64,000 nucleotides of DNA from Phytohabitans maris. GTDB lineage: Bacteria > Actinomycetota > Actinomycetes > Mycobacteriales > Micromonosporaceae. The notes under the pieces are model-generated. The model searched no databases, was not told the origin of the DNA, and was given only the letters and a program-made list of their open reading frames with translations. The DNA is taken from contig NZ_JAVHUY010000009.1 in NCBI RefSeq assembly GCF_031085175.1, forward strand, positions 1 through 64,000, given 5' to 3'. Of the stretch, positions 28,227 through 57,248 are shown piece after piece; position 1 is the stretch's first letter; each line of letters starts with the position of its first letter. The position numbers were made by a program, and so were the translations under genes.

Positions 28227-28243
28227 CCTATGGGTTAGATAGG
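28227..28243. promoter_or_regulatory. Island operator 1: CCTAT-N7-ATAGG
   Basis: CCTAT GGGTTAG ATAGG lies exactly within the spacer and -10 of the minus-strand promoter of the SsuABC-like operon (-35 TTGACT at 28253-28248, -10 TAGGGT at 28230-28225). It is one of six related 17-bp sites in the island. A repressor bound here would block RNA polymerase. Confidence 0.7.
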
Positions 28244-28301
28244 AAATAGTCAACGCTTCGCGGGCACGAGGTTCGATACCACACACGCTCCGGAAGGTTC
28301 G

Positions 28302-28330
28302 TTGACAGCCACAGCGAGGGATGCTGCACT
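28302..28330 (+). promoter_or_regulatory. Promoter of orphan leader peptide 1
   Basis: TTGACA (28302-28307) and a poorer TGCACT (28325-28330) are 17 bp apart, and the leader ATG begins 7 bases after the -10. This predicts a leaderless transcript. Confidence 0.5.
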
Positions 28331-28336
28331 GGCTCC

Positions 28337-28414
28337 ATGCCTGGCGGCGTGCGGCTTACCATCCGCGGCCACATCGACTTCGGTCGCGTGTGGTCGAGTT
28401 CCTGTCCGCGTTGA
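28337..28414 (+). CDS. Cysteine-containing leader peptide 1 (25 aa)
   Basis: The short frame reads MPGGVRLTIRGHIDFGRVWS, then SSCPR and a stop. It matches the pattern of actinobacterial sulfur leader peptides: a central R-x-H-I-D-F/L-x-R-V block and a single cysteine just before the stop. Such peptides make ribosomes respond to cysteinyl-tRNA supply (known for mycobacterial polycysteine leaders; the single-cysteine form is inferred to work similarly). The ATG is at the predicted transcription start. No intact gene follows on this strand; only a signal-peptide remnant at 28509 does. Confidence 0.72.
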   Translation: MPGGVRLTIRGHIDFGRVWSSSCPR

Positions 28415-28851
28415 CGGTCCACCTCCGCCACATCACCCCTGCTTCCACATCGTGGTACACGCGTGCATTCATGCCGCACGCTCTCCTGCTTGTCCACAAG
28501 GGAGACTCATGTCTCGACGCTTTCCGCGAGTGGCGGTGGCGACCACCGCGCTTGCCCGGATCCCGGACGGAGCCGCCGAGAACCGCGGCGTCGCGGCCGG
28601 ACGCGGGGAGGCGGAAAGGCTGATCGCCGCCGCGACGGCGACGGGCTCGACCCGGCATCGGTCAACGCCCCGTACACACCGCCACCGCCCGGGCCTGGAG
28701 TGTGGCGGCCGACGCCACCCGCTTTCGCCGCCGCCACCCAGGCCGGCAGGTCGCGGCGCACACGCTGCGCGAGGCGTGGCGCCTCTTCGCCTGAGACACC
28801 CGGTCCCAGCCGACCAGCCAGGTCGTGCCCTGGCGCGGCGCTCCCGGCCGC
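28415..28851. other. Gene debris behind leader peptide 1
   Basis: Two fragments can be read on the plus strand. ATG 28509, preceded by AGGGAG, encodes MSRRFPRVAVATTALA, the start of an exported-protein signal sequence that then breaks off. At about 28650-28760 another frame reads NAPYTPPPPGPGVWRPTPPA, a segment typical of PAP2/vanadium-haloperoxidase-like proteins. The two are fused by a deletion. The leader presumably once served a transporter operon here. Confidence 0.45.
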
Positions 28852-29184
28852 TCAGTGGGTCCGGGAACGGGACATCCGGCGCAGCCCGGTGGCCAGCGCG
28901 ACGAGGGCGAGGGGCCCGACGACCAGGACGGTGCCGATCGCGGCGATGACCGGCTCCACGTACATCACCACCGAGTTCCAGATCTGCACCGGCAGGGTCT
29001 TGGTGGACGGGCCGCCCATGAAGAGCGCGATGAGCAGGTTGTCGAACGAGGTCAGGAACGCGAACAGCGCGGCGGAGAGCACGGCCGGAGCGATGATCGG
29101 CAGGGTGGTGGTCCGGAAGGCGACGACCGGGCTGGCGCCGAGCCCTTGCGCGGCCCGCTCCAGGGTGGACCGGAAAGCCGCCAT
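28852..29184 (-). pseudogene. Truncated ABC transporter permease (C-terminal half)
   Basis: This 110-codon frame reads MAAFRSTLERAAQGLGASPV, then PIIAPAVLSAALFAFLTSFD, NLLIALFMGGPSTKTLPVQI and IAAIGTVLVVGPLALVALAT. It is the last third of a spermidine/putrescine (PotC)-type permease, including the EAA-loop region. The N-terminal helices are missing; upstream sequence turns directly into the rhodanese promoter. It has no partner ATPase or receptor nearby and is a relic. Confidence 0.75.
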
Positions 29185-29217
29185 TCCCTGGCACCTTGCG
29201 GATCCGCGGGAACGCCG

Positions 29218-29246
29218 TGGACGTATTCCTATCGGCTAAGTATGAT
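29218..29246 (+). promoter_or_regulatory. Promoter of the rhodanese gene with island operator 2
   Basis: TGGACG (29218-29223) and TATGAT (29241-29246) are 17 bp apart; the gene's ATG starts 8 bases after the -10, predicting a leaderless mRNA. The spacer contains CCTAT CGGCTAA GTATG (29228-29244), a half-degenerate form of the 17-bp inverted repeat, in the same position relative to the promoter as at operator 1. Confidence 0.65.
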
Positions 29247-29253
29247 TTGACCA

Positions 29254-29591
29254 TGACTAGTCAGGCACCCGACCTCATCTCCCCTACCGACGCCGGTGCA
29301 CGCGTGGCGAACGGCGCTCTTCTCGTCGACGTGCGAAGCGCGTCCCGCCGCGTGGCGGACGGCGCCATCCCGGGCGCGATCATCGCCGACCGCCACGATC
29401 TGAAGGCGGTGTTCGGCGTCGTTTCGGTGGACACGCCGATCGTGGTGGTCTGCGGCTCCGTCGACGGTTCCCGGCCGGTCGCCGAGGCGCTGGTGGCCGA
29501 GGGCTTCGCCGACGTCGCCCACGTGGACGGCGGCTTCGCCCAGTGGCGCGACGCGGGACTGCCCGTCGAAGCGGCGCCCGCGGCCGGCTGA
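29254..29591 (+). CDS. Rhodanese-like sulfurtransferase domain protein
   Basis: A 112-residue single-domain rhodanese: ALLVDVRSASRRVADGAIPG with the CH2A region, then VVVCGSVDGSRPVAEALVAE carrying active-site Cys in VCGSVDGSR, and VAHVDGGFAQWRDAGLPVEA as the family's typical end. It would move sulfane sulfur from thiosulfate or persulfide donors. ATG 29254 was chosen over an upstream start because it sits at the predicted transcription start and MTSQAPDLISP begins the homology. It fits the island as the step handling released sulfur. Confidence 0.9.
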
Positions 29592-29621
29592 GCGCTGATC
29601 ATCCCTCGCTGTGCGACCCGC

Positions 29622-29648
29622 CTCCTGCCAGCCCTGGGCTGGCAGGAG
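29622..29648. terminator. Bidirectional terminator hairpin
   Basis: CTCCTGCCAGCC (29622-29633) pairs perfectly with GGCTGGCAGGAG (29637-29648) around a CTG loop: a 12-bp stem between the convergent rhodanese and SsuD genes. Confidence 0.88.
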
Positions 29649-29681
29649 AGGCGTCCGCTGCCGAGGCGCCGCTCAGGTGCC

Positions 29682-30734
29682 TCATTCCGGGTCGCGCAGC
29701 AGCGGGAGGAGCTGCTCGCCCTGGCGTCTGATCTCGGGAAGGTACGGGGTGTCGGAGAGCACGAAATGGGTGATGCCCAGGCTCTGGTACCGGCGCAGCG
29801 ACTTCGCCACGTCTTCGGCGGAGCCGACAAGCCAGGTGGTGCCCGCTCCGCCCCCGCCGAACTTCCCGGGCGCGGTGTAGAGATTGTCGTCGAGGACATC
29901 TCCGCGCGCGGCCAGGTCGAGCAGCCGCTGCTGCCCCACCGCCGCCCGCCACGACGGATCCCGCAACCTGCCACCACTCTCGGCCATCCGCGCGACCTTC
30001 GCCTCCGCATCCGCCCACGCCTGCTCGGTGGTGTCCCGCACCAATGTGGTCACCCGCAAGCCGAACTCCAACGGCGGCAACTGACGCCCGAGCTTCTCAC
30101 CCAGGCCCTTGAGCCGCTCTATCCGCTCGGCGACACCGTCCAGCGGCTCACCCCAGAACAACTGCACGTCCGCGTCGGTAGCGGCCACCCGCTCCGCAGC
30201 CGCTGACGCGCCTCCGAAATAGAGCCGCGGTGCCCTGACCGGCCTTGGCTCCACAGTAGAGTCCGTGACGCTGAAATACTCCCCGCGGTGGGTGACGCTC
30301 TCCTCAGCCCACAGCCGGCGCACGATGCGGATGAACTCCCGGGTGCGGGCGTAGCGGTCGGCTTGGTCGCCCTCACTGTCACCGTACGCCGGGAGGTTGT
30401 CCTTACCCGACACGATGTTGACAAGCACCCGTCCGCCGGTCAGATGGTCCAGGGTCGCGGCGGCAGAGGCGAAGTTGGCCGGCCGCCAGTAGCCAGGCCG
30501 GACCGCGATCAACGGCTGGAAGGTCGTGGTCCGCACGGCCAACGCGGTGGCCACGGTGAACGTATCCGGGCGGCCCCAACCGGTGCCGATCAACGCACCA
30601 CCCCACCCGTACTTCTCCACCGCCAACGCGTGACTGGTCAACGTCTCCAGACTGTTGTGCCCCACGACGACATCGTCGCCGTGGTGACCCGGCTCGACCT
30701 GGTTCGGGATGTACCAGAGGAACTCGCGGCTCAT
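29682..30734 (-). CDS. ssuD: Alkanesulfonate monooxygenase, FMNH2-dependent
   Basis: A 350-residue LLM enzyme of the SsuD branch, which converts alkanesulfonates to aldehydes and sulfite. Seen: MSREFLWYIPNQVEPGHHGD at the start, LIGTGWGRPDTFTVATALAV, RPGYWRPANFASAAATLDHL, GGRVLVNIVSGKDNLPAYGD and LYFGGASAAAERVAATDADV, all characteristic. ATG 30734 gives the canonical N-terminus. A GTG at 30776 in the same frame lies 7 bases after a TAGGAT -10 and could be a leaderless alternative start. Its promoter region is shared with leader peptide 2 on the other strand. Confidence 0.93.
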   Translation of the reverse strand: MSREFLWYIPNQVEPGHHGDDVVVGHNSLETLTSHALAVEKYGWGGALIGTGWGRPDTFTVATALAVRTTTFQPLIAVRPGYWRPANFASAAATLDHLTGGRVLVNIVSGKDNLPAYGDSEGDQADRYARTREFIRIVRRLWAEESVTHRGEYFSVTDSTVEPRPVRAPRLYFGGASAAAERVAATDADVQLFWGEPLDGVAERIERLKGLGEKLGRQLPPLEFGLRVTTLVRDTTEQAWADAEAKVARMAESGGRLRDPSWRAAVGQQRLLDLAARGDVLDDNLYTAPGKFGGGGAGTTWLVGSAEDVAKSLRRYQSLGITHFVLSDTPYLPEIRRQGEQLLPLLRDPE

Positions 30735-30784
30735 GACGGGACCCTTCCGCTCGCGACCAATGGTGGCCTGGATCACACATAAAT

Positions 30785-30801
30785 CCTATCGACCCGATAG
30801 G
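30785..30801. promoter_or_regulatory. Island operator 3: CCTATCG-N3-CGATAGG
   Basis: This is the most perfect site: a 7-bp inverted repeat around ACC, 17 bp in all, in the divergent region between ssuD and leader peptide 2. It overlaps the -10 (TAGGAT) facing ssuD and lies just upstream of the -10 TATAGT (30802-30807) facing the leader. Confidence 0.75.
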
Positions 30802-30814
30802 TATAGTATAGAAC

Positions 30815-30889
30815 ATGGTCGGGCCGCTCCTTCACTCCAGACGCGAGATCGACCTCGCGCACTGCGCCAGCGTGCTCTGTCTGCGCTGA
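30815..30889 (+). CDS. Cysteine-containing leader peptide 2 (24 aa)
   Basis: The frame MVGPLLHSRREIDLAHCASV, then LCLR and stop, has the S-R-R-x-I-D-L core and late cysteines (positions 17 and 22) of the actinobacterial sulfur leader peptides. Its ATG lies 8 bases after TATAGT, so the mRNA is predicted to be leaderless. It precedes the binding-protein gene at 31001 by 111 bases and probably couples expression of the whole transporter/monooxygenase operon to cysteine supply. The mechanism is known for mycobacterial polycysteine leaders; here it is inferred. Confidence 0.85.
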   Translation: MVGPLLHSRREIDLAHCASVLCLR

Positions 30890-31000
30890 CTCGCTGCCAC
30901 ACCGCCCACCGGGATCGCCGCCGCATGGCCGCCGCGGCAATTCGGACCTCGATCCGCCTTCCACCGAAGTGTTTCCGCGCATCGTGCATTGGAGCAGCTC

Positions 31001-32722
31001 ATGTCCGAGCTACGCGAGACCGTCGAAAGCGCCGCACGGGCACACCGCCGCAGATGGCCCTGGGCCGCGGGTGCCGCTGTCCTGCTCCTCCTCATCGCCG
31101 GGATCGGACTCGCCGTCGACCGCGGCGGCGTTTCCGGTGACGCGTCCGCCGCCGCGGGCGAGCCGGTCCGCGGCGGCACCCTGGAGTTCGCCCTGATCGA
31201 CTTCCAGCGCAGCCCGGATCCGCAGTGGGGCACCAACTATGCCGAGTCGCTGATCGGCAACAACATCACCGACAAGCTGACCTGGCAGGACCCCGAGACC
31301 GGCGAGATCACGCCGTGGCTGGCGAAGTCCTGGGAGTACAACGACGACCTGACCGAGTTCACCTTCCACCTGCGCGACGACGTGACTTTCAGCGACGGCA
31401 CGCCGTTCGACGCGGCAGTGGTCAAGGCCAACCTCGACCAGTACGTGCGCGGCGACAAGGCGCTGGACATCAACCCCAACGGTGCCGTGCTGCTGCCCGG
31501 CTACATCGAGACGCGCACGCCCGACGAGTACACCGCCGTGGTCCGCTTCGAGAAGCCGCTGGCCAGTTTCCTGCAGGCATCGTCCTTCACCGCCAACGCG
31601 CAGCCGGGCTTCCTGTCACTGTCCACATTGAAGCTCAGCGCCGCGGAACGCACCGACCCGACCAAGGTGATCGGCACCGGCCCCTTCGTGTACGAGTCCT
31701 GGGAGGAACAGGTCAAGACCGTCCTGGTCAAGCGGAAGGGCTACAACTGGGCGCCACCCGCGATCGGCCACACCGGCGAGGCATACCTGGACCGGATCGT
31801 CTTCAACACCATCCCCGAAGCCAGCGTCCGCACCGGCTCCCTCGCCTCCGGCACCATCGACGCCACCCTCGACGTCGGCACCACCGACGAGAAACCCCTC
31901 ACCGCGCAGGGCTTCACCATCATCCACCGGGGCGTGTCGGGCACGGCCATCTTCTTCAACCTCAACTCGCAGCTGTTCCCCACCAACGACATCGCGGTAC
32001 GCAAGGCGATCCAGCTCGGCTGGGACCGCGCGGCGATCGAGAAGACCGTGCTGACCGACTCGTACTCGGTGGCCAGGTCGGTCCTGGCCGACTCGGTGCG
32101 CGGATACGTGGACTACAGCGGCTCGGTGCTGCGGTACGACCCGGAGGCCGCCGGGAAGCTGCTGGACGAGGCCGGCTGGCGCCCTGGGCCCGGCGGGATC
32201 CGGGTCAAGGACGGCAGGTCGCTGGTGGTCAAGCTCATCGGCATCAACAACCTCGTGGTCAACAAGCCCGCCTACGAGTCGATCCAGCAGGACCTCAAGA
32301 AGATCGGCATCGACCTCCAGCTCACCGTCGTGCCGATCCCGGACTACGCGGCCCTGCAGGCCAAGGCGAAGACCGACGCGAACATCACCGCGGCCAACCG
32401 TTCGCGCAACGACCCGGCCGTGCTCAACCTGCAGTACAGCCCGCTGCTGGGCAACGGCGCCTACCTCACGAAGGACTCCACCGGCGTCGACGTCGAGGAG
32501 GTCACCCGCGTCCTGGGCCAGCTGGAGCTCACGCTCGACCCGGCCGAGCGGGACGCGTACGCCAAGGCGGCGCAGGACATCCTGCTCGACAAGTACGCGC
32601 TGGTGAACCCGGTCTACAACCCGTCGCAGGTGATCGCCCACGCGGGCTACGTACACGGGATCATCTTCGACGCCCAGTCCCGCAACCACTTCGTGGACAC
32701 CTGGAAGAGCAACGGGAAGTAG
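31001..32722 (+). CDS. Oligopeptide-type ABC transporter substrate-binding protein
   Basis: A 573-residue family-5 (OppA/DppA) receptor. Instead of a lipobox it has an N-terminal basic stretch and one hydrophobic anchor (WAAGAAVLLLLIAGIGLAVD). The SBP_bac_5 landmarks follow: GGTLEFALIDFQRSPDPQWG, PWLAKSWEYNDDLTEFTFHL, FSDGTPFDAAVVKANLDQY, VIGTGPFVYESWEEQ. ATG 31001 follows TTGGAGCAGC. It heads a long coupled operon to at least 42866 that also encodes both permeases, a fused ATPase and several flavoenzymes. The cargo is more likely a sulfur-bearing small molecule than a peptide (context). Confidence 0.92.
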   Translation: MSELRETVESAARAHRRRWPWAAGAAVLLLLIAGIGLAVDRGGVSGDASAAAGEPVRGGTLEFALIDFQRSPDPQWGTNYAESLIGNNITDKLTWQDPETGEITPWLAKSWEYNDDLTEFTFHLRDDVTFSDGTPFDAAVVKANLDQYVRGDKALDINPNGAVLLPGYIETRTPDEYTAVVRFEKPLASFLQASSFTANAQPGFLSLSTLKLSAAERTDPTKVIGTGPFVYESWEEQVKTVLVKRKGYNWAPPAIGHTGEAYLDRIVFNTIPEASVRTGSLASGTIDATLDVGTTDEKPLTAQGFTIIHRGVSGTAIFFNLNSQLFPTNDIAVRKAIQLGWDRAAIEKTVLTDSYSVARSVLADSVRGYVDYSGSVLRYDPEAAGKLLDEAGWRPGPGGIRVKDGRSLVVKLIGINNLVVNKPAYESIQQDLKKIGIDLQLTVVPIPDYAALQAKAKTDANITAANRSRNDPAVLNLQYSPLLGNGAYLTKDSTGVDVEEVTRVLGQLELTLDPAERDAYAKAAQDILLDKYALVNPVYNPSQVIAHAGYVHGIIFDAQSRNHFVDTWKSNGK

Positions 32723-32728
32723 GACGCC

Positions 32729-33703
32729 GTGCTCCGCTACGTCGCGCTGAAGGTGGGCCGGGCCCTGTTCGTCGTCTGGGCCGCGTTCACCCTGACCTTC
32801 GTCCTGCTGTTCGTGCTGCCGGCGAACCCGGTCGACCTGCTCTTCGACCCCGCCGAGATCAACGCCGTCCCGCCGGAGGTCCGGGAGCGGGTGGCGGAGA
32901 ACTACGGCTTCAACGAGCCGGTGCTCCTGCAGTACCTCGACCGGCTCGGCCACGCGCTGACCGGCGACTTCGGCAACTCCGTGCAGTCCGGGCGGCCGGT
33001 GACCGCGGCGATCCTCGACGTGCTGCCCAGCACCCTGATCCTCGCCGCCGGCGCGCTCGTGCTGGCGCTGGTCATCGCGTTCGTGATCGCGCTGGTGGCG
33101 ACCTCGACCCGGCACGACTGGGTACGCAACCTGGTGGAGGCGCTCCCCTCGACCTCCGTCTCGGTGCCGGTCTTCCTCTCCGGCATCCTGATCCTGCAGA
33201 TCTTCTCCTTCCAGCTCGGTTGGTTTCCGGCCTTCGGCGACGAAGGCTGGCGCAGCCTGGTCCTTCCGCTGGTCACCCTCGCGATCCCGGTGTCCGGCCC
33301 GATCGCGCAGCTGCTCGTGCGCAGCTTCGCCAAGGAGTTCCACTCCGGCTACGTCACCACCAGCTGGGCGAAGGGCGCGACCCGCGGCGCGATCGTCATC
33401 GGGGACGTCTTCCGCAACGCCAGCCTGCCGGCGCTGACCATCGCCGGAGTCACGTTCGGCAACCTGATCGCCGGCTCGGTGATCACCGAGACCGTCTTCG
33501 CCCGCAAGGGCATCGGCCGGATGACCCAGACCGCGATCAACACCCTCGACCTCCCGCTGGTACAGGGAATCGTCGTGCTCGTCGCGGCCAGCTTCGCGCT
33601 GATCAACCTGGTCGTCGACCTCACCTATCCCGTGCTGGACCCGCGACTGCGGGCCACGCTCGCGGCCCCCACCGCCAAGGCCGCCTCAGGAGGAGCGCGA
33701 TGA
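32729..33703 (+). CDS. Oligopeptide-type ABC transporter permease (DppB-like)
   Basis: A 324-residue permease with the usual first helix VGRALFVVWAAFTLTFVLLF, the short external loop ending YGFNEPVLLQYLDRLGHALT, GDFGNSVQSGRPVTAAIL and five more helices. The EAA loop is present (TTSWAKGATRGAIVIGDVFR). It starts with GTG 32729, 6 bp after the receptor gene, and overlaps the next permease by 4 bases. Confidence 0.93.
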   Translation: MLRYVALKVGRALFVVWAAFTLTFVLLFVLPANPVDLLFDPAEINAVPPEVRERVAENYGFNEPVLLQYLDRLGHALTGDFGNSVQSGRPVTAAILDVLPSTLILAAGALVLALVIAFVIALVATSTRHDWVRNLVEALPSTSVSVPVFLSGILILQIFSFQLGWFPAFGDEGWRSLVLPLVTLAIPVSGPIAQLLVRSFAKEFHSGYVTTSWAKGATRGAIVIGDVFRNASLPALTIAGVTFGNLIAGSVITETVFARKGIGRMTQTAINTLDLPLVQGIVVLVAASFALINLVVDLTYPVLDPRLRATLAAPTAKAASGGAR

Positions 33704-34581
33704 CCGTCGAACTGGAGACGCTCGCCCCGCCGGCGGCCGCGCGGCCCGCGTTCGCGCCCTCACTGGCCGGGCGCGCCGCCGAACTCGTCCGCCAGCCGAT
33801 GCTGGTGCTCTCCTGGCTCGTCGTGGCGGTCGTGATCGGCTGGGCGGTCGTGCCGGACCTGTTCACCTCCTACGGCCCGTACGACGGCGACACCACCGCG
33901 AGCTTCGCGCCGCCGAGCCTGGAGCACTGGTTCGGCACCGACCGGCTCGGGCGGGACCTGTTCGCCCGCAGCGTGTACGGCGCCCGCACCACGCTGATCG
34001 CCACGCTGCTGGCCGTCGTCATCGCGTTCGGCATCGGCACGGTCGTCGGCCTGGTCGCCGGCTTCGCCGGTGGGATCGTGGACACCGCGGTCATGCGGGT
34101 GGTCGACGTGTTCCTGGCCATCCCCAGCCTGCTGCTCGCGATGGTGGTGGTCTCGGTCCTGGGCTACTCCACGCAAAACATCGCCCTGGCCGTCGGCATC
34201 TCCTCCATCGCCTCGTTCGCCCGGGTGATGCGGGCCGAGGTGCTCTCGGTGGTGACCCAGGACTACGTCAAGGCGGCGTACGGCCTGGGCGTCGGCCGGC
34301 TGGGCGTGATGCTGCGGCATGTGGTGCCCAACTCGCTCAACTCGGTGGTCGCGCTGGCCGCGCTGGAGGTCGGCACCGCCGTCCTGGCCGTCGCCTCGCT
34401 CGGCTTCCTCGGCTACGGCGCCCCGCCGCCGCAGCCGGAGTGGGGGCTGCTGGTCGCCGAGGGGCGCGACTTCGTCGCCGTCCACCCATGGACCTCGATC
34501 CTGCCCGGGGTGGCGCTCGCGATCGTCGTGATCGCCACCCATCGGATCAGCGCCTCGTTCCGGAAGGACCGCCGCCGATGA
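33700..34581 (+). CDS. Oligopeptide-type ABC transporter permease (DppC-like)
   Basis: A 293-residue second permease. N-terminal helix VLSWLVVAVVIGWAVVPDLF is followed by the DppC signature HWFGTDRLGRDLFARSVYGA, then six-helix core with the EAA loop DYVKAAYGLGVGRLGVMLRH and the end ISSIASFARVMRAE/PEWGLLVAEGRDF. ATG 33700 has AGGAGGAG directly upstream. It pairs with the DppB-like subunit. Confidence 0.94.
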   Translation: MTVELETLAPPAAARPAFAPSLAGRAAELVRQPMLVLSWLVVAVVIGWAVVPDLFTSYGPYDGDTTASFAPPSLEHWFGTDRLGRDLFARSVYGARTTLIATLLAVVIAFGIGTVVGLVAGFAGGIVDTAVMRVVDVFLAIPSLLLAMVVVSVLGYSTQNIALAVGISSIASFARVMRAEVLSVVTQDYVKAAYGLGVGRLGVMLRHVVPNSLNSVVALAALEVGTAVLAVASLGFLGYGAPPPQPEWGLLVAEGRDFVAVHPWTSILPGVALAIVVIATHRISASFRKDRRR

Positions 34582-36221: not shown

Positions 36222-36230
36222 GGAGGTCCT

Positions 36231-39606: not shown

Positions 39607-39618
39607 GAAGGAGACCCG

Positions 39619-45924: not shown

Positions 45925-45954
45925 TTGACACGACGAAAATCGCTCGGCTAACGT
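45925..45954 (+). promoter_or_regulatory. Promoter of leader peptide 3
   Basis: TTGACA (45925-45930) and TAACGT (45949-45954) are separated by 18 bp; the leader's GTG starts 8 bases after the -10, predicting a leaderless transcript running toward the second receptor operon. Confidence 0.65.
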
Positions 45955-45961
45955 CGCTCGC

Positions 45962-46036: not shown

Positions 46037-46041
46037 CGCCG

Positions 46042-46071
46042 GAGCCCGTGCCCGCCGTTCCGAGCGGGCTC
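46042..46071 (+). promoter_or_regulatory. Hairpin behind leader peptide 3 (possible attenuator)
   Basis: GAGCCCG (46042-46048) pairs with CGGGCTC (46065-46071). It begins 6 bases after the leader stop, where ribosome stalling at the cysteine codons could change its folding. The attenuator role is inferred. Confidence 0.4.
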
Positions 46072-46146
46072 GCCAGCGCGGACCGTCCCGCCGCACACTC
46101 GACCACAACCCCCGAAAAATGTTCGGCCCCTCGGCCGGCATAATTT

Positions 46147-46163
46147 CATATTAATCCGATAGG
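46147..46163. promoter_or_regulatory. Island operator 4: CATAT-N7-ATAGG
   Basis: CATAT TAATCCG ATAGG matches the 17-bp island site with one change in the left half. It lies between leader 3 and the receptor gene, about 64 bp before the GTG. Confidence 0.6.
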
Positions 46164-46226
46164 TTAGACAGGTTCGATCGGAGTCTCGCGGCTCGCGACC
46201 GGCCCGCTTTCAGTGAGGAACCCACC

Positions 46227-47870
46227 GTGCGCGTGACCGCTTCACGTCCCGGCCAACGCCGCAGACCCTCGACGCTCGCCAGAGCCGGCGTCGGGCTGGC
46301 TGCCGCCGCCACCCTCCTCGTCGCCTGCTCGTCCGGCGACGGCGCCGCCTCGTCCTCGGCGAGCGACACCCCACGCCGCGGCGGCGCCCTGAAGATCGGC
46401 GTCGCCGGCGACCCGGGCTGCCTCGACCCCCAGCAGAACGGCAACGCCTCGTCGATCAACATCAGCCGGCAGGTCGTCGACAGCCTGACCGACCTGGACC
46501 CGCAGACCGGCGCGACCGCGCCCTGGCTGGCCACCTCGTGGACGGTCAACCCGGACGCCACCCAGTTCACCTTCACGCTCCGCGACGGCGTGACGTTCAG
46601 CGACGGGTCGCCGCTGACCGCGGAGGTCGTGAAGAAGAACTTCGACACCGTGGTCACCCTGGGCGCCGCCACGTCGCTGGTGACCGGCTACCTGGCCGGC
46701 TACCAGGGCACCACCGCACTGGACGCGCACACCGTACGGGTCGACTTCAAGCAGCCGAACGCCGGCTTCCTGCAGGCCACCTCGGTCGTGCAGCTCGGCA
46801 TCCTGTCGGCCGGCACGGTCGCGAAGAGCGCGGCGGAGCGCTGCCAGGCGGGCAACCTCGTCGGCACCGGCCCGTTCGTCCTCGAGTCGTACACGGCGAA
46901 CCAGTCGGCCCTCCTCAACCGCCGGGCCGGCTACGCGTGGCCCTCGGAGGTGTCTCGGCACCGCGACGAGGCGTACCTGGACTCCGTCGAGTTCGACATC
47001 GTCAGCGAAGCGAGCGTACGCACGGGCGCCCTGCAGTCCGGGCAGCTCGACGCGGTCACCGACGTGCAGCCGGACGACGAGGCCTCGTTCGGCAGCGGCG
47101 GGTTCAGCCTCCTCGCCCGCGCCAACCCGGGTGTGGTCAACACCCTGTTCCCGAAGCCGACCTCGGCGTTCGCCGCCGATCCGGTGATCCGCAAGGCGAT
47201 ACAGACCGGCCTGGACCGCAGCCAGCTGACGGCCGTGCTCAGCGGCAGCTACCAGCCGGCCACGTCGGTGCTGGCGAAGACGACGCCCGGGTACAAGGAC
47301 GAGCAGCCGGCGTTGAAGAGCGACCCGGCGGCCGCCGGCAAGCTGCTCGACGACGCCGGCTGGGCGAAGGGCGGCGACGGGATCCGGGCCAAGGACGGCA
47401 GGCGCCTCAGCCTCGACGTCGTCTTCATCTCCAGCGTGGTCACCAACCAGAGCGTTCTGGCAGTGGTGCAGCAGCAGCTCAAGGACCTCGGCATCGAGCT
47501 GAAGCTGCGCCCGCTGGCCGTCGCCGACTACCTCAAGGCGGCGCAGGACCCCACCGTCAACTTCACGTTCGGCAACTTCACCCGGCCGGACCTGGACATC
47601 CTGCGGTCGGCGTTCTCGTCGGCGGCGGCGACCTCACCCAAGCTGACCGACGACGCGCTGGAGCAGCTCTACGTGCGGGCGCGGTCCACCGCCGACGCCA
47701 CCGCCCGGGCCGCGATCGGCGCCGAGATCCAGGACCGGCTGATCGCCGGCGCGTACGCGATCCCCGTCTACGAGCTCTCCCAGGTCGCCGCGCACAGCGG
47801 CGCCGTACGCGGCCTGCGCTTCGAGTCCTCCTCCCGGCTCGTCTTCTACGACACCTGGCTGGACCGATGA
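46227..47870 (+). CDS. Oligopeptide-type ABC transporter substrate-binding lipoprotein (second system)
   Basis: A 547-residue SBP_bac_5 receptor with a true lipobox (AAATLLVAC). Seen: RGGALKIGVAGDPGCLDPQQ, PWLATSWTVNPDATQFTFTL, FSDGSPLTAEVVKKNFDTV, VGTGPFVLESYTANQSALLN and DPVIRKAIQTGLDRSQLTAV. GTG 46227 has GTGAGGAACC upstream. It opens an operon (46227-52445, perhaps to 54199) of receptor, LLM enzyme, acetyltransferase, short LLM-like protein and two permeases. It is only moderately similar to the receptor at 31001, so the two systems probably import different compounds. Confidence 0.93.
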   Translation: MRVTASRPGQRRRPSTLARAGVGLAAAATLLVACSSGDGAASSSASDTPRRGGALKIGVAGDPGCLDPQQNGNASSINISRQVVDSLTDLDPQTGATAPWLATSWTVNPDATQFTFTLRDGVTFSDGSPLTAEVVKKNFDTVVTLGAATSLVTGYLAGYQGTTALDAHTVRVDFKQPNAGFLQATSVVQLGILSAGTVAKSAAERCQAGNLVGTGPFVLESYTANQSALLNRRAGYAWPSEVSRHRDEAYLDSVEFDIVSEASVRTGALQSGQLDAVTDVQPDDEASFGSGGFSLLARANPGVVNTLFPKPTSAFAADPVIRKAIQTGLDRSQLTAVLSGSYQPATSVLAKTTPGYKDEQPALKSDPAAAGKLLDDAGWAKGGDGIRAKDGRRLSLDVVFISSVVTNQSVLAVVQQQLKDLGIELKLRPLAVADYLKAAQDPTVNFTFGNFTRPDLDILRSAFSSAAATSPKLTDDALEQLYVRARSTADATARAAIGAEIQDRLIAGAYAIPVYELSQVAAHSGAVRGLRFESSSRLVFYDTWLDR

Positions 47871-51585: not shown

Positions 51586-52445
51586 GCACCGCCGTCCTCG
51601 CGCCCCGCCGGGCCTGGCCGCGCCGGGCCCTGCGCGCCGCGGTCCGGCTGCCCGGACGCGCCACCGCGGTACTCTTCATGCTGCTCGTCGCCGCCTGGGC
51701 GGTGCTACCCGGACCGCTGGCGACCCACGACCCGCTGCGCGTCGTACCGGCCGACCGCCTCCAGCCGCCCAGCGCCGCGCACCTGTTCGGCACCGACGAG
51801 CTCGGCCGCGACCTGTACAGCCGGGTCGTGCACGGCACCGCCCTGTCGCTGCAGTCGACGCTGGCGGCGGTACTCATCGGGCTGGCCCTGGGATCCGTCC
51901 TCGGCCTGCTGGCCGGCTTCGCCCGCGGCGTGGTCGACGCGGTGGTCATGCGCCTCGTCGACGTCCTGCTCGCCGTGCCGAGCCTGCTGCTCTCGCTGGT
52001 GATCGTGGCCGCGCTGGGCCCGGGCACCGCCAAGATCGCGTGCGCGGTCGGGATCGGCTCGATGCCGGGGTTCGCCCGGGTCGTACGCGCCGAGGTCCTC
52101 CGGGTCCGGGCCTCCGGCTACGTCGAGGCGGCCACGGTGGTCGGCGCGCGGCGCTTCTCGATCGTGCTCTGGCACGTCGTCCCGAACGCGGCCGGCCCGG
52201 CGATCGTCCTGGCCACCACGACCATCGGCACCGCGATGCTGGCGATCTCGTCGCTCGGCTTCCTCGGGTTCGGCGCGCCGCCGCCGGCGCCCGAGTGGGG
52301 CAGCCTCATCGCCGGCGGCCGCGGCTACCTGGCCACCGCGTGGTGGATCAGCCTGCTGCCGTGCCTGGTCGTGGTCCTGTCCGTCCTCGCGGTCAACCAC
52401 CTCGCGCGGACGGCCGACCGGGCGCGCGTGGCCGGTGTGCCGTGA
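51582..52445 (+). CDS. Oligopeptide-type ABC transporter permease (DppC-like, second system)
   Basis: A 287-residue permease: AVLFMLLVAAWAVLPGPLAT, HLFGTDELGRDLYSRVVHGT, the EAA loop GYVEAATVVGARRFSIVLWH and LGFLGFGAPPPAPEWGSLIA. GTG 51582 overlaps the previous stop by 4 bases. The operon may continue to the aminotransferase 30 bp later. Confidence 0.93.
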   Translation: MSTAVLAPRRAWPRRALRAAVRLPGRATAVLFMLLVAAWAVLPGPLATHDPLRVVPADRLQPPSAAHLFGTDELGRDLYSRVVHGTALSLQSTLAAVLIGLALGSVLGLLAGFARGVVDAVVMRLVDVLLAVPSLLLSLVIVAALGPGTAKIACAVGIGSMPGFARVVRAEVLRVRASGYVEAATVVGARRFSIVLWHVVPNAAGPAIVLATTTIGTAMLAISSLGFLGFGAPPPAPEWGSLIAGGRGYLATAWWISLLPCLVVVLSVLAVNHLARTADRARVAGVP

Positions 52446-52475
52446 CCCGCCCACACCCGAGGAACGGAGCATCCC

Positions 52476-53681
52476 ATGGCCGCCCCTGACCACGACCGGC
52501 TGTCCCAGCTCGCGTCGAGACTGACCAACCCCCAGGCGTTCGTGGGCGTGCTCGGCGACCGCCGCCCGGACGCCGTCGAACTGCTCGGCGGCAACCCCGC
52601 CACCGAGGCGCTGCCGGCCGCGGCGCTGCGCGCCAGCATCGACGGGCTGCTCGCCGACGGGGTACGAGCCGCGCCGGCGCTGCGGTACTCCGGCCCCCGC
52701 GGCCTGGACGAGCTGGTCGCCTGGCTGGCGGACCGCGAGGGGGTCGAACCTTCGCGGATCGTCGTCACCAACGGCGGCCTGCACGCGCTGTCGCTGGTCA
52801 CGCAGGTGCTCCTGGACGCCGGCGACACCGTCGTCACCGACGACCCGATCTTCCCCATCGCGCTGCGCGTGCTCCAGCTCACCGGCGCCGGCGCGCTGCC
52901 GGTACCGGTCGGGCGGGACGGCCTCGACGTCGGCGCGCTGGACGAGCTGCTGGCGCGGGGGCTGCGGCCGCGGGCCGTCTACACGGTCGCCGACTTCCAG
53001 AACCCCACCGGCGGGGTGCTCGGCGCCGCCGCCCGCGCCCGGCTGGTGGACCTGGCCGAGCGGTTCGGCTTCGTGGTGCTCTCCGACAACCCGTACCGCA
53101 CGTCCCGGTTCGCCGGCGCCGACGAGCCGGACCTGCCGGCCGGCAGCGACCGCGTCGTGCGGATCAACACGTTCTCGAAGTCGCTCGGCCCCGGCCTGCG
53201 GCTCGGCTGGCTGGTCCTGCCGCCCTGGCTCGTCCAGCCGGTGCTGAACGTCCGCGCCCGTACCGACCAGCACCCGTCCACGTTCACCCAGGCGGCGATC
53301 CTCGGCATCGTACGCCCGGCCGGCGCGTTCGACCGGATCCTGGCCGCCCTGTCGGCGCTGCACGGCGCCCGGGCCGCGGCGCTGGCCACCGCCCTGCGCA
53401 CCCACCTGGCCGGGCAGGTCGAGGCCGAACGGCCCGACGGCGGGTTCTTCGTCTGGGCCCGGCTGCTCGACCCGGCCGTCACCCTCGAACCGCTGCACCG
53501 CGCCGCCGCCGCGCACGGCACCGGCTTCTCGCGGGGCACGTCGTTCGCCGTACCCGGCGGGCGCGACCACGACCGGTACCTGCGCCTGGGCTTCAGCGAC
53601 ATCCCGGAGGCCGGCATCGAGGAGGCCGTCGGCCGGCTCGCCGCCGCGGTGAGCGCCGTCCGTGACGGACGCGGCGCGTGA
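52476..53681 (+). CDS. PLP-dependent aminotransferase, class I/II
   Basis: A 401-residue fold-type I aminotransferase. Seen: RYSGPRGLDELVAWLADREG, VTNGGLHALSLVTQVLLDAG, VYTVADFQNPTGGVLGAAAR with the substrate-binding N-P-T-G, Tyr in LSDNPYRTSRF, and the Schiff-base Lys in NTFSKSLGPGLRLGWLVLPP. The PLP-phosphate Arg follows. It resembles the stand-alone relatives of MocR regulators. GGAACGGAGC precedes the ATG. Its stop overlaps the start of the decayed LLM gene. In the island it could process an amino acid such as a sulfur amino acid derivative (inference). Confidence 0.9.
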   Translation: MAAPDHDRLSQLASRLTNPQAFVGVLGDRRPDAVELLGGNPATEALPAAALRASIDGLLADGVRAAPALRYSGPRGLDELVAWLADREGVEPSRIVVTNGGLHALSLVTQVLLDAGDTVVTDDPIFPIALRVLQLTGAGALPVPVGRDGLDVGALDELLARGLRPRAVYTVADFQNPTGGVLGAAARARLVDLAERFGFVVLSDNPYRTSRFAGADEPDLPAGSDRVVRINTFSKSLGPGLRLGWLVLPPWLVQPVLNVRARTDQHPSTFTQAAILGIVRPAGAFDRILAALSALHGARAAALATALRTHLAGQVEAERPDGGFFVWARLLDPAVTLEPLHRAAAAHGTGFSRGTSFAVPGGRDHDRYLRLGFSDIPEAGIEEAVGRLAAAVSAVRDGRGA

Positions 53682-54199
53682 CCCGCGTACCACTGTCCAT
53701 CTTGGACCTCGCGCACATCCCGGCCGGCGCCGAGCCGCGGCGGGCGGTGAACGGCCGGCCGGACCGTCGACGGCGTCGTCGTACCGGCGCCCTACGACCG
53801 CGGCGCGATCACCGCCTCCCCCGCCGTGCGGCGCCGGCAGGAGCTGCTGCAGCAGCCGGAGGCGCGGGCGGAGCCGTACCCGGACCAGGTTGCCGCGCTG
53901 CGCTGCCTGCTCGCCGGCCGCTACCGCGCCGGCGACGGGACACCGGCCTCGGCGTTTCCCGGCGGCGCCGCCGACGTGGAGGTCTGGGCGCTGGGCAGCA
54001 GCGGCGGCGAGCGGGAGCGGGCACTGGTCGCCGACCGACGAGCACCCACATCGCCGGGGTGGCGGAGGTCGTCGTCGCGCGGCTGGCAGCGCTGCGGCGG
54101 CTGACCGGCGCGGACGAGCTGATCGTCACGACCGCGGCGCACAACCCGGACGACGTCGACTCCTCCATCCGGCTGCTCGCCGAGGCCTGGCACGCGTAG
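53678..54199 (+). pseudogene. Decayed LLM flavin monooxygenase gene
   Basis: GTG 53678 opens a frame reading VPLSILDLAHIPAGAEPRRA, the standard start of luciferase-like MsnO8-type enzymes. The homology then moves to another frame with YPDQVAALRCLLAGRYRAGD, GTPASAFPGGAADVEVWALG and SSGGE, and returns to the first frame for the end GVAEVVVARLAALRRLTGAD, ELIVTTAAHNPDD and the final LLAEAWHA. About 150 residues in two blocks are missing. The gene was once coupled to the aminotransferase but can no longer make an enzyme. Confidence 0.78.
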
Positions 54200-54219
54200 C
54201 CGCCGGCGCGGTGGCGGCT
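54198..54219. terminator. Short hairpin between convergent genes
   Basis: AGCCGCC (54198-54204) pairs with GGCGGCT (54213-54219), between the decayed LLM gene and the 3' end of the MocR gene. Confidence 0.4.
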
Positions 54220-55577
54220 CAGGCCCGGGCGAAACGGGCCAGCGAGTCGGCCAGGTACTCGATCTCCAGGGTCTGGATGGCGAGCCGGCCGGTCGCGACC
54301 CGCAGGTGCTGCTCCCGCCGCCGCGGGCTGATCCAGCTGGTGGAGCCCATGCTGGTCTCCACCCCGGCGTGCGCCAGCCCGGTGAACGCCCGCTCCTCGT
54401 CGACGACCGGCAACCACACGATCAGCCCGTCCTCGCCACCGACCTGCACGCCCCGGTCGGCGAGGGCGGCGACCAGCGCCGTCCGGCGGCGCCGGTACCG
54501 GCGCCCCGCACGCTCGACGAGCCGGCGGGTGTCGCCGTCGCGCAGCAGGTGGGCGAGTGCGTCCTGCAGGACCCGGCTGTTCCACACGCCGGACATGCCA
54601 CGGATCCGGTTCACCGCGCGCACCAGGTGCTCCGGCCCGGCCAGCACCGACGTGCGCAGGTCCAGACCGAAGGCGGCGCAGTACGAGCGCTGCCGCAGCA
54701 CCTGCCCGGGAAGCAGCGCACCGAGGCTCAGGTCGCGCCCGGCGAGCAGGGGGCCGAGCGTGTCGTCCTCGAAGACCTGGACCTCGGGGTGGCGGGCCAG
54801 CACCTCGGCCAACTCCTCGAGCCGCTGCTCGGTCACCCGGCCCCCGGTCGGCACGTGCCCCCTCGGCTGGTACACGAACGCTCGGGCGCCCCGCCGCAAC
54901 GCCGCGCGGAGCATCGCCGGGCTGGGCCCCTCGCCGTCCCAGTCGACCCCGATCATCGGCACCTTCAGGTGGTCGAGCAGCGTCAGCGTCCGCATCATCG
55001 TCGGCTGCTCGACCGCCACCGGCCGGCCGGCTGTGAGCACCGCCTGCACACCCAGGAAGTTGCCGTGCCAGCCGCCGTCCGCGGTGGTCCACGCCTCAGC
55101 CCGGAACGGCCACGTGCGCCGGACCGCGCCCAGCAGCGCCGGCGTCACGAACGCGAAGTCGAACGCGTGCAGGTCCGGCGACCGCACCCCGGCCAGGACC
55201 GCCTGCTCCAGCGGCGGAAACAGCGCCGGGTCGGGTTCGCCGTCGGCACGGTCGACGGAGAGCACGCCGCTGGGCGTCTGGACCTCCACCCGGCTCCCGA
55301 CCGGCAGCACCAGCGTGCCGCGCCGCCCGGAGGCGCGCAGCATGCCGGCCCGGGTCAACTGGTTCCACGCCTCCTGAACGGTGGTCGGGCTCACCTCCAG
55401 CGCCCGCGCGACGTCCCGGATCGCCGGCAGCCGGGTGCCGGGTCTGATCCGCCCGGCGTGGATCTCGCTACGCACCTCGTTCGCGATACCCGACGCGGTC
55501 CGGCTCGCTATCCGCTCCGCGAACCCGTCGACCGACACGTCCCGCCACGCCGGCGCAGCGGCCGCGTTCAGCGCCAT
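54219..55577 (-). CDS. MocR-type regulator (GntR HTH plus aminotransferase-like domain) lacking the PLP lysine
   Basis: A 452-residue MocR protein. The N-terminal GntR winged helix is IHAGRIRPGTRLPAIRDVAR followed by LEVSPTTVQEAWNQLTRAGM (residues about 35-90). The fold-type I domain follows: GVQAVLTAGRPVAVEQPTMM, YQPRGHVPTGGRVTEQRLEE. At the Schiff-base position, where relatives read R-S-F-S-K, this protein reads RSYCAAFGLDLRTSVLAGP: the lysine is replaced by alanine. It may sense a ligand without covalent PLP. Start 55577 (MALNAAAAP) is a reasonable choice; the frame extends further upstream. Operator 5 and leader 4 lie upstream. Confidence 0.9.
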   Translation of the reverse strand: MALNAAAAPAWRDVSVDGFAERIASRTASGIANEVRSEIHAGRIRPGTRLPAIRDVARALEVSPTTVQEAWNQLTRAGMLRASGRRGTLVLPVGSRVEVQTPSGVLSVDRADGEPDPALFPPLEQAVLAGVRSPDLHAFDFAFVTPALLGAVRRTWPFRAEAWTTADGGWHGNFLGVQAVLTAGRPVAVEQPTMMRTLTLLDHLKVPMIGVDWDGEGPSPAMLRAALRRGARAFVYQPRGHVPTGGRVTEQRLEELAEVLARHPEVQVFEDDTLGPLLAGRDLSLGALLPGQVLRQRSYCAAFGLDLRTSVLAGPEHLVRAVNRIRGMSGVWNSRVLQDALAHLLRDGDTRRLVERAGRRYRRRRTALVAALADRGVQVGGEDGLIVWLPVVDEERAFTGLAHAGVETSMGSTSWISPRRREQHLRVATGRLAIQTLEIEYLADSLARFARA

Positions 55578-55748
55578 CCGGAGCCCATCATCACGTACCA
55601 CCGATTCATCCGGCCGACCCGGCCACTTTACCGTCGCCCGGCTCCGCGCCCGTCCGCGGCAGCGACACCGCCACACGCGACACAGCCGCGGGGGCCAACG
55701 GCCAACGTACCCGTTCAAGATCCCAGACAGTGGAAACTCGTTGCTATT

Positions 55749-55765
55749 CCTACATCGCCCGTAGG
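55749..55765. promoter_or_regulatory. Island operator 5: CCTAC-N7-GTAGG
   Basis: CCTAC ATCGCCC GTAGG is a perfect repeat that extends to TTCCTAC/GTAGGAA (55747-55767). It has the same 5-7-5 geometry as the other island sites. It lies 13 bp before the leader 4 start and about 170 bp from the MocR start on the other strand. Confidence 0.65.
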
Positions 55766-55777
55766 AATATTACGGGT

Positions 55778-55852
55778 ATGCCATCGACGGTCTTCCTGAC
55801 CTCGCGGCGCGCCATCGACTTCGGGCGCGTCGCCAGCGGCCTCTGTCCGTAG
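55778..55852 (+). CDS. Cysteine-containing leader peptide 4 (24 aa)
   Basis: The frame MPSTVFLTSRRAIDFGRVAS, then GLCP and stop, is a classic actinobacterial sulfur leader peptide: S-R-R-x-I-D-F-x-R-V-A-S followed by one cysteine before the stop. AATATT/TATTAC sits 5-7 bases upstream, so a leaderless start is likely. A hairpin GCCCGGC-CTTC-GCCGGGC follows at 55879-55896. There is no gene on this strand behind it; the next gene is convergent, so this leader is orphaned. Confidence 0.85.
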   Translation: MPSTVFLTSRRAIDFGRVASGLCP

Positions 55853-55878
55853 TCGAAGCCACTTCCCACACGTCTCCC

Positions 55879-55896
55879 GCCCGGCCTTCGCCGGGC
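55879..55896. terminator. Hairpin behind leader peptide 4
   Basis: GCCCGGC pairs with GCCGGGC around CTTC. It could be the leader's attenuator or a terminator for the convergent LLM gene ending at 55917. Confidence 0.5.
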
Positions 55897-55916
55897 ACGC
55901 GATGAGGTCCGGCCGT

Positions 55917-56621
55917 TCAGCCGCGATCATCCGCCCACTCGAGCTCCGGCGCCCGGAACGCCTGGATGTGGGAGAGCTGGATCGCGGCGAAGTCTTCCGA
56001 CTCCTCGGCCCTGACCACATTGCTGGTCAGAAAGTTCATCCCGTGCTCGCCGGCCCACTCCGCCGAACGCAAGCTTCCGCCGCCGTACCACATCCGGCTG
56101 CCCAGACCCGGCGAGTGCGGCTGGACGCGGTCGGAGAAGACCTCGAATCCCTCCACCCCGCGAAAGCCCCCGGCCGGCTCGCCGCGGATCAGCTCCAGCA
56201 GCCGGCGTACCCGTCCATAGCCGAAGTCCTCGTGGTCTGCCGTGTCCGGGTACAGCGTCTGCTTGACCTGCTCCCAGTGCATCGGCGGGCCGACGCTGAC
56301 GCCCGGGTTGAGCCGACCGCCGCAGAGGACGTCGACGGTGGCGAGGTCTTCAGCCAGCCGCAACGGGTTCTCCCAGCCGAGCGGGATCACCGCGGTGCCG
56401 AGCGCGATCCGGCTGGTGCGCTGGGAAGCCGCCGCGAGCACCGCCACCGGCGACGAGATGCCGTAATGCAGGTGCCGGTGCCGCACCCAGGCGCTGTCGA
56501 AGCCGAGCCGCTCCCCCAGCTCGATGACCTCCAAGGTCGACTCGTGCCCGGGCCTCGGATCCGCACCGTCGAAGAGCCCGATCGTCAGGAAACCCAGCTT
56601 CCGCAAGGGTCGCACCGTCAC
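55917..56621 (-). pseudogene. LLM flavin-dependent oxidoreductase, C-terminally truncated
   Basis: A 234-residue frame with a good LLM start (LRKLGFLTIGLFDGADPRPG), then FDSAWVRHRHLHYGISSPVA, IALGTAVIPLGWENPLRLAE, MWYGGGSLRSAEWAGEHGMN and LTSNVVRAEESEDFAAIQLS. It ends abruptly at IQAFRAPELEWADDRG, while members of this subgroup are about 330-345 residues. About 100 C-terminal residues have been lost, close to the orphan leader 4, so one deletion or insertion event may explain both. GTG 56621 is the best start. It follows the flavin reductase gene by 46 bp. Confidence 0.72.
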
Positions 56622-56667
56622 CGCCCGATTCCGGCAGAGCCCACCACCGGCCCCCTGAACCGGCGGA

Positions 56668-57186
56668 TCAGGCCGCCGACCGCTGCGAGGGCGGCCCGAC
56701 GGCCGAGTACCCGCCCATGTGGTAGACGAGCGGAGCGCCACCCCGATCGTGCTGGCCCTGCAGCGGCTCGGCCAGCACGATCGCGTGGTCACCGGCCGGC
56801 ACCCGCCTCGTCACCCGGCACAGCAGCCACGCCGCCGGCGAGTCCAGCAGCGGCACCCCGTACGGCCCCAGCCGCCAAGCGCCATGCACCGCGAACCGGT
56901 CGATACCGCTGGTGGCGAACGTCCTGGCCACCTCGTGCTGGCCGTCGGCGAGCAGGTGCACACCGACGTACGCCGCGCGCTCCACCGTCGGCCAACTGGA
57001 CGAGCCCCGGTCCAAACAGAACGACACCAGCGGCGGCCGCAACGACACCGACGTGAACGACGTCGCGGTGAACCCCACCGGCGGCGAGCCGGGCACTGTC
57101 ACCACCGTGACCGTCGCGGCCAGCCGGCGCATCAACGCCCGGAAGGCGTCCGCGCCGAGCGGCGGCACGCGGTCGAGCAAGCCCAT
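56668..57186 (-). CDS. Flavin reductase-like FMN-binding split-barrel protein
   Basis: A 172-residue flavin reductase of the HpaC/DszD type, supplying FMNH2 to two-component monooxygenases. Seen: ADAFRALMRRLAATVTVVTV, GFTATSFTSVSLRPPLVSFC (flavin-binding), SWPTVERAAYVGVHLLADGQ and DHAIVLAEPLQGQ near the end. Start 57186 (MGLLDRVPPLG) has no strong ribosome site. It forms a small operon with the truncated LLM gene and has island operator 6 about 50 bp upstream. Confidence 0.9.
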   Translation of the reverse strand: MGLLDRVPPLGADAFRALMRRLAATVTVVTVPGSPPVGFTATSFTSVSLRPPLVSFCLDRGSSSWPTVERAAYVGVHLLADGQHEVARTFATSGIDRFAVHGAWRLGPYGVPLLDSPAAWLLCRVTRRVPAGDHAIVLAEPLQGQHDRGGAPLVYHMGGYSAVGPPSQRSAA

Positions 57187-57231
57187 AGCCGAACCCCATG
57201 ACCTTCAAGTGAAGCAGCCTTGCCGGCAAAT

Positions 57232-57248
57232 CCTATAGGTAAAATATG
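57232..57248. promoter_or_regulatory. Island operator 6: CCTAT-N7-ATATG
   Basis: CCTAT AGGTAAA ATATG; read on the other strand it is CATAT-N7-ATAGG, the same variant as operator 4. It lies upstream of the flavin reductase gene, where TATAGG could serve as a -10. Confidence 0.6.

Follow-up and report, generated by a model that had tools for sequence, protein, structure and literature searches.

CymR of Bacillus subtilis and Staphylococcus aureus is an Rrf2 protein without an iron-sulfur (Fe-S) cluster that acts on sulfur genes, in complex with CysK according to passages of two papers (PMC2940859, PMC9338935). The second of these also states, in the passages drawn on here, that NsrR binds a 23-bp consensus site whose central 7 bp receive no base-specific contacts. 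Among the actinomycetes, the Rrf2/CymR protein IGTS8_peg394 of Rhodococcus qingshengii IGTS8 was proposed as a global sulfur regulator; it was detected only in dibenzothiophene-grown culture, and its immediate neighbourhood is without sulfur genes (excerpts of PMC8557817). CymR may act on dsz, for which DszGR and WhiB1 are reported as other regulators (excerpts of PMC9426449), and the excerpts of these two papers give no operator for the IGTS8 protein. In this study we analysed the first 64,000 nucleotides (the window) of contig NZ_JAVHUY010000009.1, here C89, from the Phytohabitans maris genome (9.87 Mb, 95 contigs), in which a 23-bp palindrome occurs six times in an island of putative organosulfur genes. 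Comparison of sequences makes it very probable that the six sites serve as operators for a regulon of sulfur scavenging, and that their regulator is a cysteine-less, CymR-like Rrf2 protein encoded on contig C23, where it ends a sulfate ATP-binding cassette (ABC) transporter operon.

The C23 protein falls into the Rrf2 family (PF02082, 112.9 bits with a cut-off of 30; TIGR00738, 108.7 bits with a cut-off of 73.3), and the Rrf2 profile matches the B. subtilis CymR structure PDB 2y75 with an E value of 3.7e-25. On the NCBIfam equivalog model of CymR (NF047409, cut-off 195) it reaches 85.3 bits, and its relative at L056, a locus of the same genus, 68.5; as these scores are below the cut-off, the C23 protein is termed CymR-like and is not filed as CymR. 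It probably works like CymR, a likeness drawn from the protein and the target genes, and its candidate targets differ from those of CymR in being organosulfur monooxygenases and sulfonate, peptide and sulfate transporters. The C23 protein and IGTS8_peg394 are both actinomycete Rrf2 proteins tied to sulfur, likened here by description. NsrR, IscR and RsrR carry an Fe-S cluster, whereas four Rrf2 proteins aligned in this study (C23, C5 and C56 of P. maris, and L056) contain no cysteine, so that an Fe-S sensor is unlikely and no cluster is expected; the conserved ligand cysteines of the NsrR, IscR and RirA type are absent from all four. The NsrR site has the same length and 7-bp centre as the element described here, a likeness of layout, and by analogy this layout would suit an Rrf2 dimer. 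Regulators of Corynebacterium likewise control sulfur genes in an actinobacterium; among them McbR, which belongs to that genus, is of another protein family. Cysteine leader-peptide attenuators act on RNA and translation. Leader peptide 4 of the window resembles both NCBIfam models of such attenuators, under their cut-offs (NF042934, 23.1 bits with a cut-off of 27; NF042933, 24 bits with a cut-off of 45). Unlike these attenuators, the operator is predicted to act on DNA, upstream of the leader. No publication was recognised as giving this operator among listings of the open-access literature and selected passages.

Six palindromic sites in the window

A preliminary description of this DNA had reported six copies of CCTAT-N7-ATAGG. 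The 5-7-5 spacing is present at all six positions, but the sequence is exact only at 28227 and 30785, where none was expected from 100 shuffles; one mismatch is found at 46147 and 57232, and two at 29228 and 55749. For four of the six sites the literal motif proves little, being weak evidence at two mismatches. Comparison of the sites revealed a longer palindrome of 23 bp, about ATTCCTA(T)-N7-(A)TAGGAAT, with two 8-bp arms and a 7-bp centre. The literal definition was replaced by this element because counts at one mismatch equal those of the control. The site at 55749, when extended, is a perfect 8-7-8 palindrome, ATTCCTAC-N7-GTAGGAAT.

Four matrices were built. W1 was made from 13 P. maris sites, namely the six in the window and seven outside it that were kept after their contexts had been seen, and W2 from 38 sites near Rrf2 genes of other species, found with W1 and hence with the six. 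W6 (the six window sites only) and W7 (seven P. maris sites outside the window) avoid this mixing, although the W7 sites were themselves found with the literal pattern. With W2 the six sites are the top six of the window, which has a G+C content of 71.6%, and ranks 7 and 8 (15.1 and 14.4) overlap two of them with a shift of 9 bp. In 50 locally shuffled windows W2 gave on average 0.02 hits above 18, with a maximum of 20.1 that exceeds the weakest site. W7 again places the six first, from 31.8 to 21.9, and the next non-overlapping hit scores 8.7, while mirrored W7 reaches 15.8. At these matrix scores the original impression that the window holds no further site was borne out, and the W2 scan detected none in the next 36 kb of the contig. 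The observation of six sites is confirmed, though the weakest, at 57232, could be fortuitous. Rfam at gathering thresholds gave no match in the window.

All six operators are listed without strand. Operator 1 (28224..28246, AACCCTATGGGTTAGATAGGAAA, W2 score 30.6) has the exact core and precedes an SsuABC-like operon on the minus strand. Operator 2 (29225..29247, ATTCCTATCGGCTAAGTATGATT, 29.4) overlaps a -10-like TATGAT, a hexamer 6 nt before the ATG of a rhodanese gene at 29253. Operator 3 (30782..30804, AATCCTATCGACCCGATAGGTAT, 32.2), also with an exact core, stands between a divergent ssuD-like gene and leader peptide 2, and adjoins a TATAGT 7 nt before the ATG of the leader. Operator 4 (46144..46166, TTTCATATTAATCCGATAGGTTA, 28.3) is located before the second SBP_bac_5 operon. 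Operator 5 (55746..55768, ATTCCTACATCGCCCGTAGGAAT, 23.6), an exact match to WWNCCTAN9TAGGNWW, separates a MocR gene on the minus strand from leader peptide 4 on the plus strand, and operator 6 (57229..57251, 19.2) precedes a flavin reductase gene on the minus strand. A position in the spacer between -35 and -10 had been described for 28227 and 29228; judged by eye, the TATGAT overlaps the right edge of the latter site, and the former was not confirmed.

Association of the sites with an Rrf2 subtype

Three full-length Rrf2 matches (C56, C23 and C5) and four partial ones were found in P. maris. The C23 gene directly follows the ATPase gene as the last gene (L038:3909-4328) of the sulfate ABC operon (L038), which runs from a sulfate-binding protein through a CysT-type permease, a second permease recognised by eye and the ATPase to rrf2. 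For comparison, the best 80 of at least 566 relatives were taken from a scan of named genomes, mostly Micromonospora, Actinoplanes and their kin with some Streptomyces and others; they were picked by protein similarity and not by motif. W6 produced 95 hits above 16 in 63 of these 80 loci and W1 94 hits in 62, while the mirrored matrices gave 0 in each case. Sorted by their nearest paralogue, 51 of the 52 loci assigned to the C23/L056 subtype have a site no more than 3.2 kb upstream, and the only miss, L105, has just 980 bases upstream. The site thus stands upstream of the regulator gene or operon of this subtype in other species, as an autoregulated operator would. It lies either 26 to 120 bp before rrf2 or about 2.75 kb upstream, and some loci have two sites about 94 bp apart. 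Moreover, a matrix-free dyad search at the operon heads (-2950..-2650) placed CCTA-N9-TAGG on top, in 23 of 78 loci, where control stretches lead one to expect 0.

The gene order of individual loci varies around the same components. L070 has two sites followed by an operon from ssuA to a permease gene and rrf2; L103 is arranged as rrf2-ssuA-ATPase-permease; in L100 rrf2 is followed by operators and a sulfate operon; and L147, from Streptomyces, shows rrf2, operator and TauE. An SsuD-like enzyme is among the neighbours in L078. In L056 the site is just before the likely rrf2 start, and the gene is about 0.9 kb from another site that precedes a carbonic-anhydrase-like gene.

Instead of the C23 protein, the sites might be bound by another Rrf2 paralogue, C5 or C56, or by some other regulator with sites that just happen to lie near the C23-type gene. 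Both paralogues are 46% identical to the C23 protein and likewise without cysteine, a sequence near the P. maris C56 gene scores 17.8, and in Streptomyces five of eight loci of the C56-like type have a site within 0.9 kb, in L147 before the TauE gene. Upstream sites within 3.2 kb are nevertheless found in just 2 of 16 C5-like and 2 of 12 C56-like loci as opposed to the 51 of 52 given above, and we regard this alternative as unlikely.

The preliminary description named two candidate regulators, the MocR protein of the island and an Rrf2-type protein elsewhere, and co-location with the C23/L056 subtype speaks for the second. The MocR-type protein (54219..55718, minus strand) combines GntR and aminotransferase domains (PF00392, PF00155), and operator 5 lies about 30 bp before its reading frame, as would be expected if the sites were its own operator, local to the island. 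Yet the pattern of the motif was found in 13 of the 44 genera sampled in the family, whereas the best MocR homologue in 60 relatives is only 43% identical (matches at E 1e-60 or better, with up to 25 candidates scored per genome). Around 14 other MocR loci, 13 from relatives and one an own paralogue, all distant homologues, no site above 14 was found within about 1.5 kb, and P. maris has candidate sites on seven other contigs. A MocR-owned operator is therefore very improbable; the MocR gene is probably not that of the common regulator and is perhaps a target of the operator.

Further sites and neighbouring genes

The motif had been taken to mark the island alone, which does not hold for the whole genome: about ten more candidates are present, mostly near flavin monooxygenases, transporters, a cysteine-dioxygenase-family gene and a sulfite-oxidase-type gene. 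Exact CCTAT-N7-ATAGG occurs 5 times genome-wide, against 1 in the control. Thirteen of 17 CCTAT-N7-ATAGG sites outside the window were inspected (C42, C44:62929 and C62 were left out, and C5:108781, inspected separately, scores low), and seven of the 13 lie in sulfur-type or transporter surroundings. Two of these, C15:10775 and C15:10873, precede a luciferase-like monooxygenase and a peptide-binding protein; C22:50542 precedes a monooxygenase and a second frame that is a monooxygenase by eye; C47:13755 is flanked by a monooxygenase and, by eye, a LysR-type gene; C34:65524 is flanked by a cysteine-dioxygenase-family protein and, by eye, an NMT1-type one; C15:140954 precedes a sugar-type binding protein; and C78:217619 is followed at 2-4 kb by genes for a monooxygenase and a flavin reductase. 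All eight exact WWNCCTAN9TAGGNWW sites are among these seven or in the window. Good scores were obtained for three of the ten sites outside the window that have one mismatch to this pattern, namely C34:65512 (23.2), C35:41754 (27.1) and C7:8980 (21.5). The second precedes a sulfite-oxidase-type molybdopterin protein, and the third an enzyme of Cys/Met metabolism at a distance of about 1.25 kb. The other seven score below 10.

Two details of these surroundings were noted by eye. Downstream of the C78 site (L027, C78:215000-224000, near 2890-3510) one frame looks like a monooxygenase piece fused to an oligopeptide ABC ATPase piece, perhaps a decayed operon. At C7:195623 an exact CCTAT-N7-ATAGG with a score of 19.5 stands between a LuxR-type regulator and a long lanthionine synthetase-like frame, and no sulfur gene was seen in the surroundings.

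Among 200 sampled genomes of the family, the pattern CCTATNGGNTANNTAGG is present in 23, from the 13 genera mentioned above, with 30 matches (two in P. maris) as against 4 in the control. The 28 loci outside P. maris (L041-L068), found by pattern alone, were sorted from Pfam matches, L053 by eye. Sixteen have a sulfur-linked family within about 1 kb, including flavin mononucleotide (FMN)/flavin reductases, luciferase-like monooxygenases, MetQ- or MetN-type transport, TauE, a sulfite-oxidase-type protein and glutamate-cysteine ligase; flavin monooxygenases and reductases are not confined to sulfur metabolism, and in L055, L056 and L062 a gene other than the monooxygenase comes first beside the site. 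The context is probably sulfur-related in five loci (L041, L042, L047, L060, L064) and unclear in seven (L043, L044, L045, L053, L057, L058, L067). A search of the phylum with the pattern was uninformative and was discarded, with 11 of 149 genomes matched, several of them small and outside the own class, and 8 genomes matched by the control. A search for dsz-like genes on plasmids led to no dsz promoter.

Several proteins recur beside the sites. A small protein with only an OmpR-type DNA-binding domain (Trans_reg_C) is found in L046, L063 and L064, and adjoins an FMN reductase in the first two. A small carbonic-anhydrase-like protein (Pro_CA) directly follows exact-pattern sites at L047:1532-2020 and L056:1545-2039; hydrolysis of carbonyl sulfide is a possibility for such a protein. 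DUF1684 proteins are directly behind sites at L041:1532-2320 and L062:1529-2326, once followed by a luciferase-like monooxygenase, and this placement suggests a sulfur role for the family.

In the window, the SsuABC-like operon behind operator 1 comprises an SsuA-like substrate-binding protein of the NMT1 family (27113..28222, PF09084, E 4.8e-10) and open frames with an ABC permease (26277..27944, PF00528 at residues 373-546) and an ABC ATPase (25558..27282, PF00005 at residues 358-486), all on the minus strand. The rhodanese gene (29253..29591, plus strand, PF00581, E 4.5e-12) probably has a leaderless mRNA. The SsuD-like flavin monooxygenase (29682..30776, minus strand, PF00296) has alkanesulfonate monooxygenase as its best NCBIfam model, with 231 bits under a cut-off of 510. 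Directly behind operator 3 is leader peptide 2 (30815..30889, plus strand, MVGPLLHSRREIDLAHCASVLCLR), which has no NCBIfam match, the cysteine attenuator leader model NF042934 included, and the first gene behind it encodes an SBP_bac_5 receptor (30989..32722, plus strand, PF00496); operator 4 precedes the second such receptor (46227..47870, plus strand, PF00496). Leader peptide 4 (55778..55852, plus strand, MPSTVFLTSRRAIDFGRVASGLCP) directly follows operator 5. It has no obvious gene to control: the next recognised genes (55917-57186), a monooxygenase and a flavin reductase (56668..57186, PF01613), are on the minus strand and converge on the leader. The former, a luciferase-like monooxygenase at 55917-56792, covers only positions 22-202 of a 314-position model and looks truncated.

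Weight of the evidence and proposed mechanism

A number of results limit the case for a sulfur regulon under the C23 protein. With up to two mismatches CCTAT-N7-ATAGG has 8 matches in the window where 3.21 are expected, a count that 3 of 100 shuffles also attain. Genome-wide, the literal motif at one mismatch occurs 21 times against 23 in the control, and WWNCCTAN9TAGGNWW 20 times (8 exact and 12 with one mismatch) against 18; as the one-mismatch counts are no higher than the control, it is the better sites, together with their contexts, that carry the argument. Six of the 13 inspected sites (C7:195623, C78:177179, C30, C67, C23:352119 and C50) are without a clear sulfur gene, and among relatives of the SsuD-like gene only 4 of 11 have a site within about 1.5 kb, with seven sites in their 44 kb and a mirror maximum of 10.1. 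The site before the C23 operon itself is weak and irregular (AAAGTCTATGGGTTAAGTGGAATAT), and its score of 17.8 is also that of the sequence near the C56 gene. The 80 Rrf2 loci are biased to the C23 subtype and not independent, owing to the choice of the best of at least 566 and to the relatedness of the species. In the proximal dyad search (-150..+30, coding sequence included) CCTA-N9-TAGG is not in the top 12. In a class-wide sample, where 65 of 98 genomes have Rrf2 relatives at E 1e-20 or better and 30 loci were returned, only one site above 16 (16.3) and none above 18 was found within 1.5 kb; local shuffles gave a mean of 0.25 and a maximum of 1, so that the observed count is no higher, and a flank of this size misses sites at operon heads, as in the P. 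maris locus L182. Accordingly, the pairing of site and regulator is demonstrated in Micromonospora- and Actinoplanes-type genomes, within the C23/L056 subtype, and not for actinomycetes at large. Finally, the link to leaderless promoters is modest, with 26 of 102 sites against 14.9 in shuffled flanks.

The counts for the literal motif would fit an origin of the six sites by chance, as matches selected visually from the AT-rich gaps that a GC-rich genome contains. This explanation is so improbable that we give it hardly any weight, because W7, a matrix free of the window, ranks the six first and W6, made from the six alone, scores above 16 at most of the Rrf2 loci elsewhere. The sequence might instead be a promoter element, part of ordinary leaderless promoters or recognised by an alternative sigma factor, and not a repressor site, as -10-like hexamers are overlapped or abutted at 29228 and 30785. 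A 23-bp palindrome with fixed arm spacing, its position 26 to 120 bp from rrf2 start codons, the occasional pairs about 94 bp apart and the small excess of leaderless sites all argue against this, and a promoter element is highly improbable. In Streptomyces lividans the -10 element is TAnnnT and 17% of transcripts are leaderless, according to passages of PMC8079986; the leaderless count alone was used here, since the TAGG within the motif confounds the TAnnnT count (55 of 102 against 50.9).

The preliminary description had interpreted the sites as the operator of one sulfur-status regulator, and the recurrence of the element, its sulfur-gene contexts and its co-location with one Rrf2 subtype support that interpretation. 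In the mechanism we propose for the C23 protein, an Rrf2 dimer would bind the site with one arm per subunit and block RNA polymerase, as the site lies over or beside the -10 region; leaderless-like promoters beside the sites, with the hexamer 6-7 nt before the start codon at 29228 and 30785, suit a repressor that excludes the polymerase. The protein would release the DNA when sulfur, in the form of cysteine or its precursors, is scarce. By analogy with CymR, our first guess for the effector is O-acetylserine or cysteine together with CysK. A second, translational check could be added at two promoters, where a leader peptide that contains cysteine directly follows the site.

The control of sulfur scavenging is described as open in many actinomycetes. 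For mycobacteria, a 2011 review states in the passages considered that regulators comparable to CysB and Cbl had not been identified, and mentions a functional analogue for Corynebacterium (PMC3141025); part of another paper calls what is known of sulfur metabolism in antibiotic-producing streptomycetes fragmentary (PMC11356490). An Rrf2 sulfur regulator has already been proposed in Rhodococcus, and what is added here, well supported by comparison, is a candidate operator tied to a defined Rrf2 subtype. Operator and subtype together turn the suspected CymR homologue of fuel-desulfurizing Rhodococcus into a question that can be addressed by gel shift, with a list of targets, and flag DUF1684 and the small carbonic-anhydrase-like protein as possible sulfur genes. 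A wider reading, which we offer tentatively and with somewhat more doubt than belief, is that of a master switch of organosulfur scavenging across the whole actinomycete family: a cluster-free Rrf2 repressor, encoded in or beside sulfonate and sulfate transporter operons, would use one 23-bp palindrome to repress monooxygenase and transporter genes that are numerous and scattered, and at some promoters this control would be superimposed on a cysteine leader-peptide attenuator. If this is true, two independent sulfur checks would act on one transcript.

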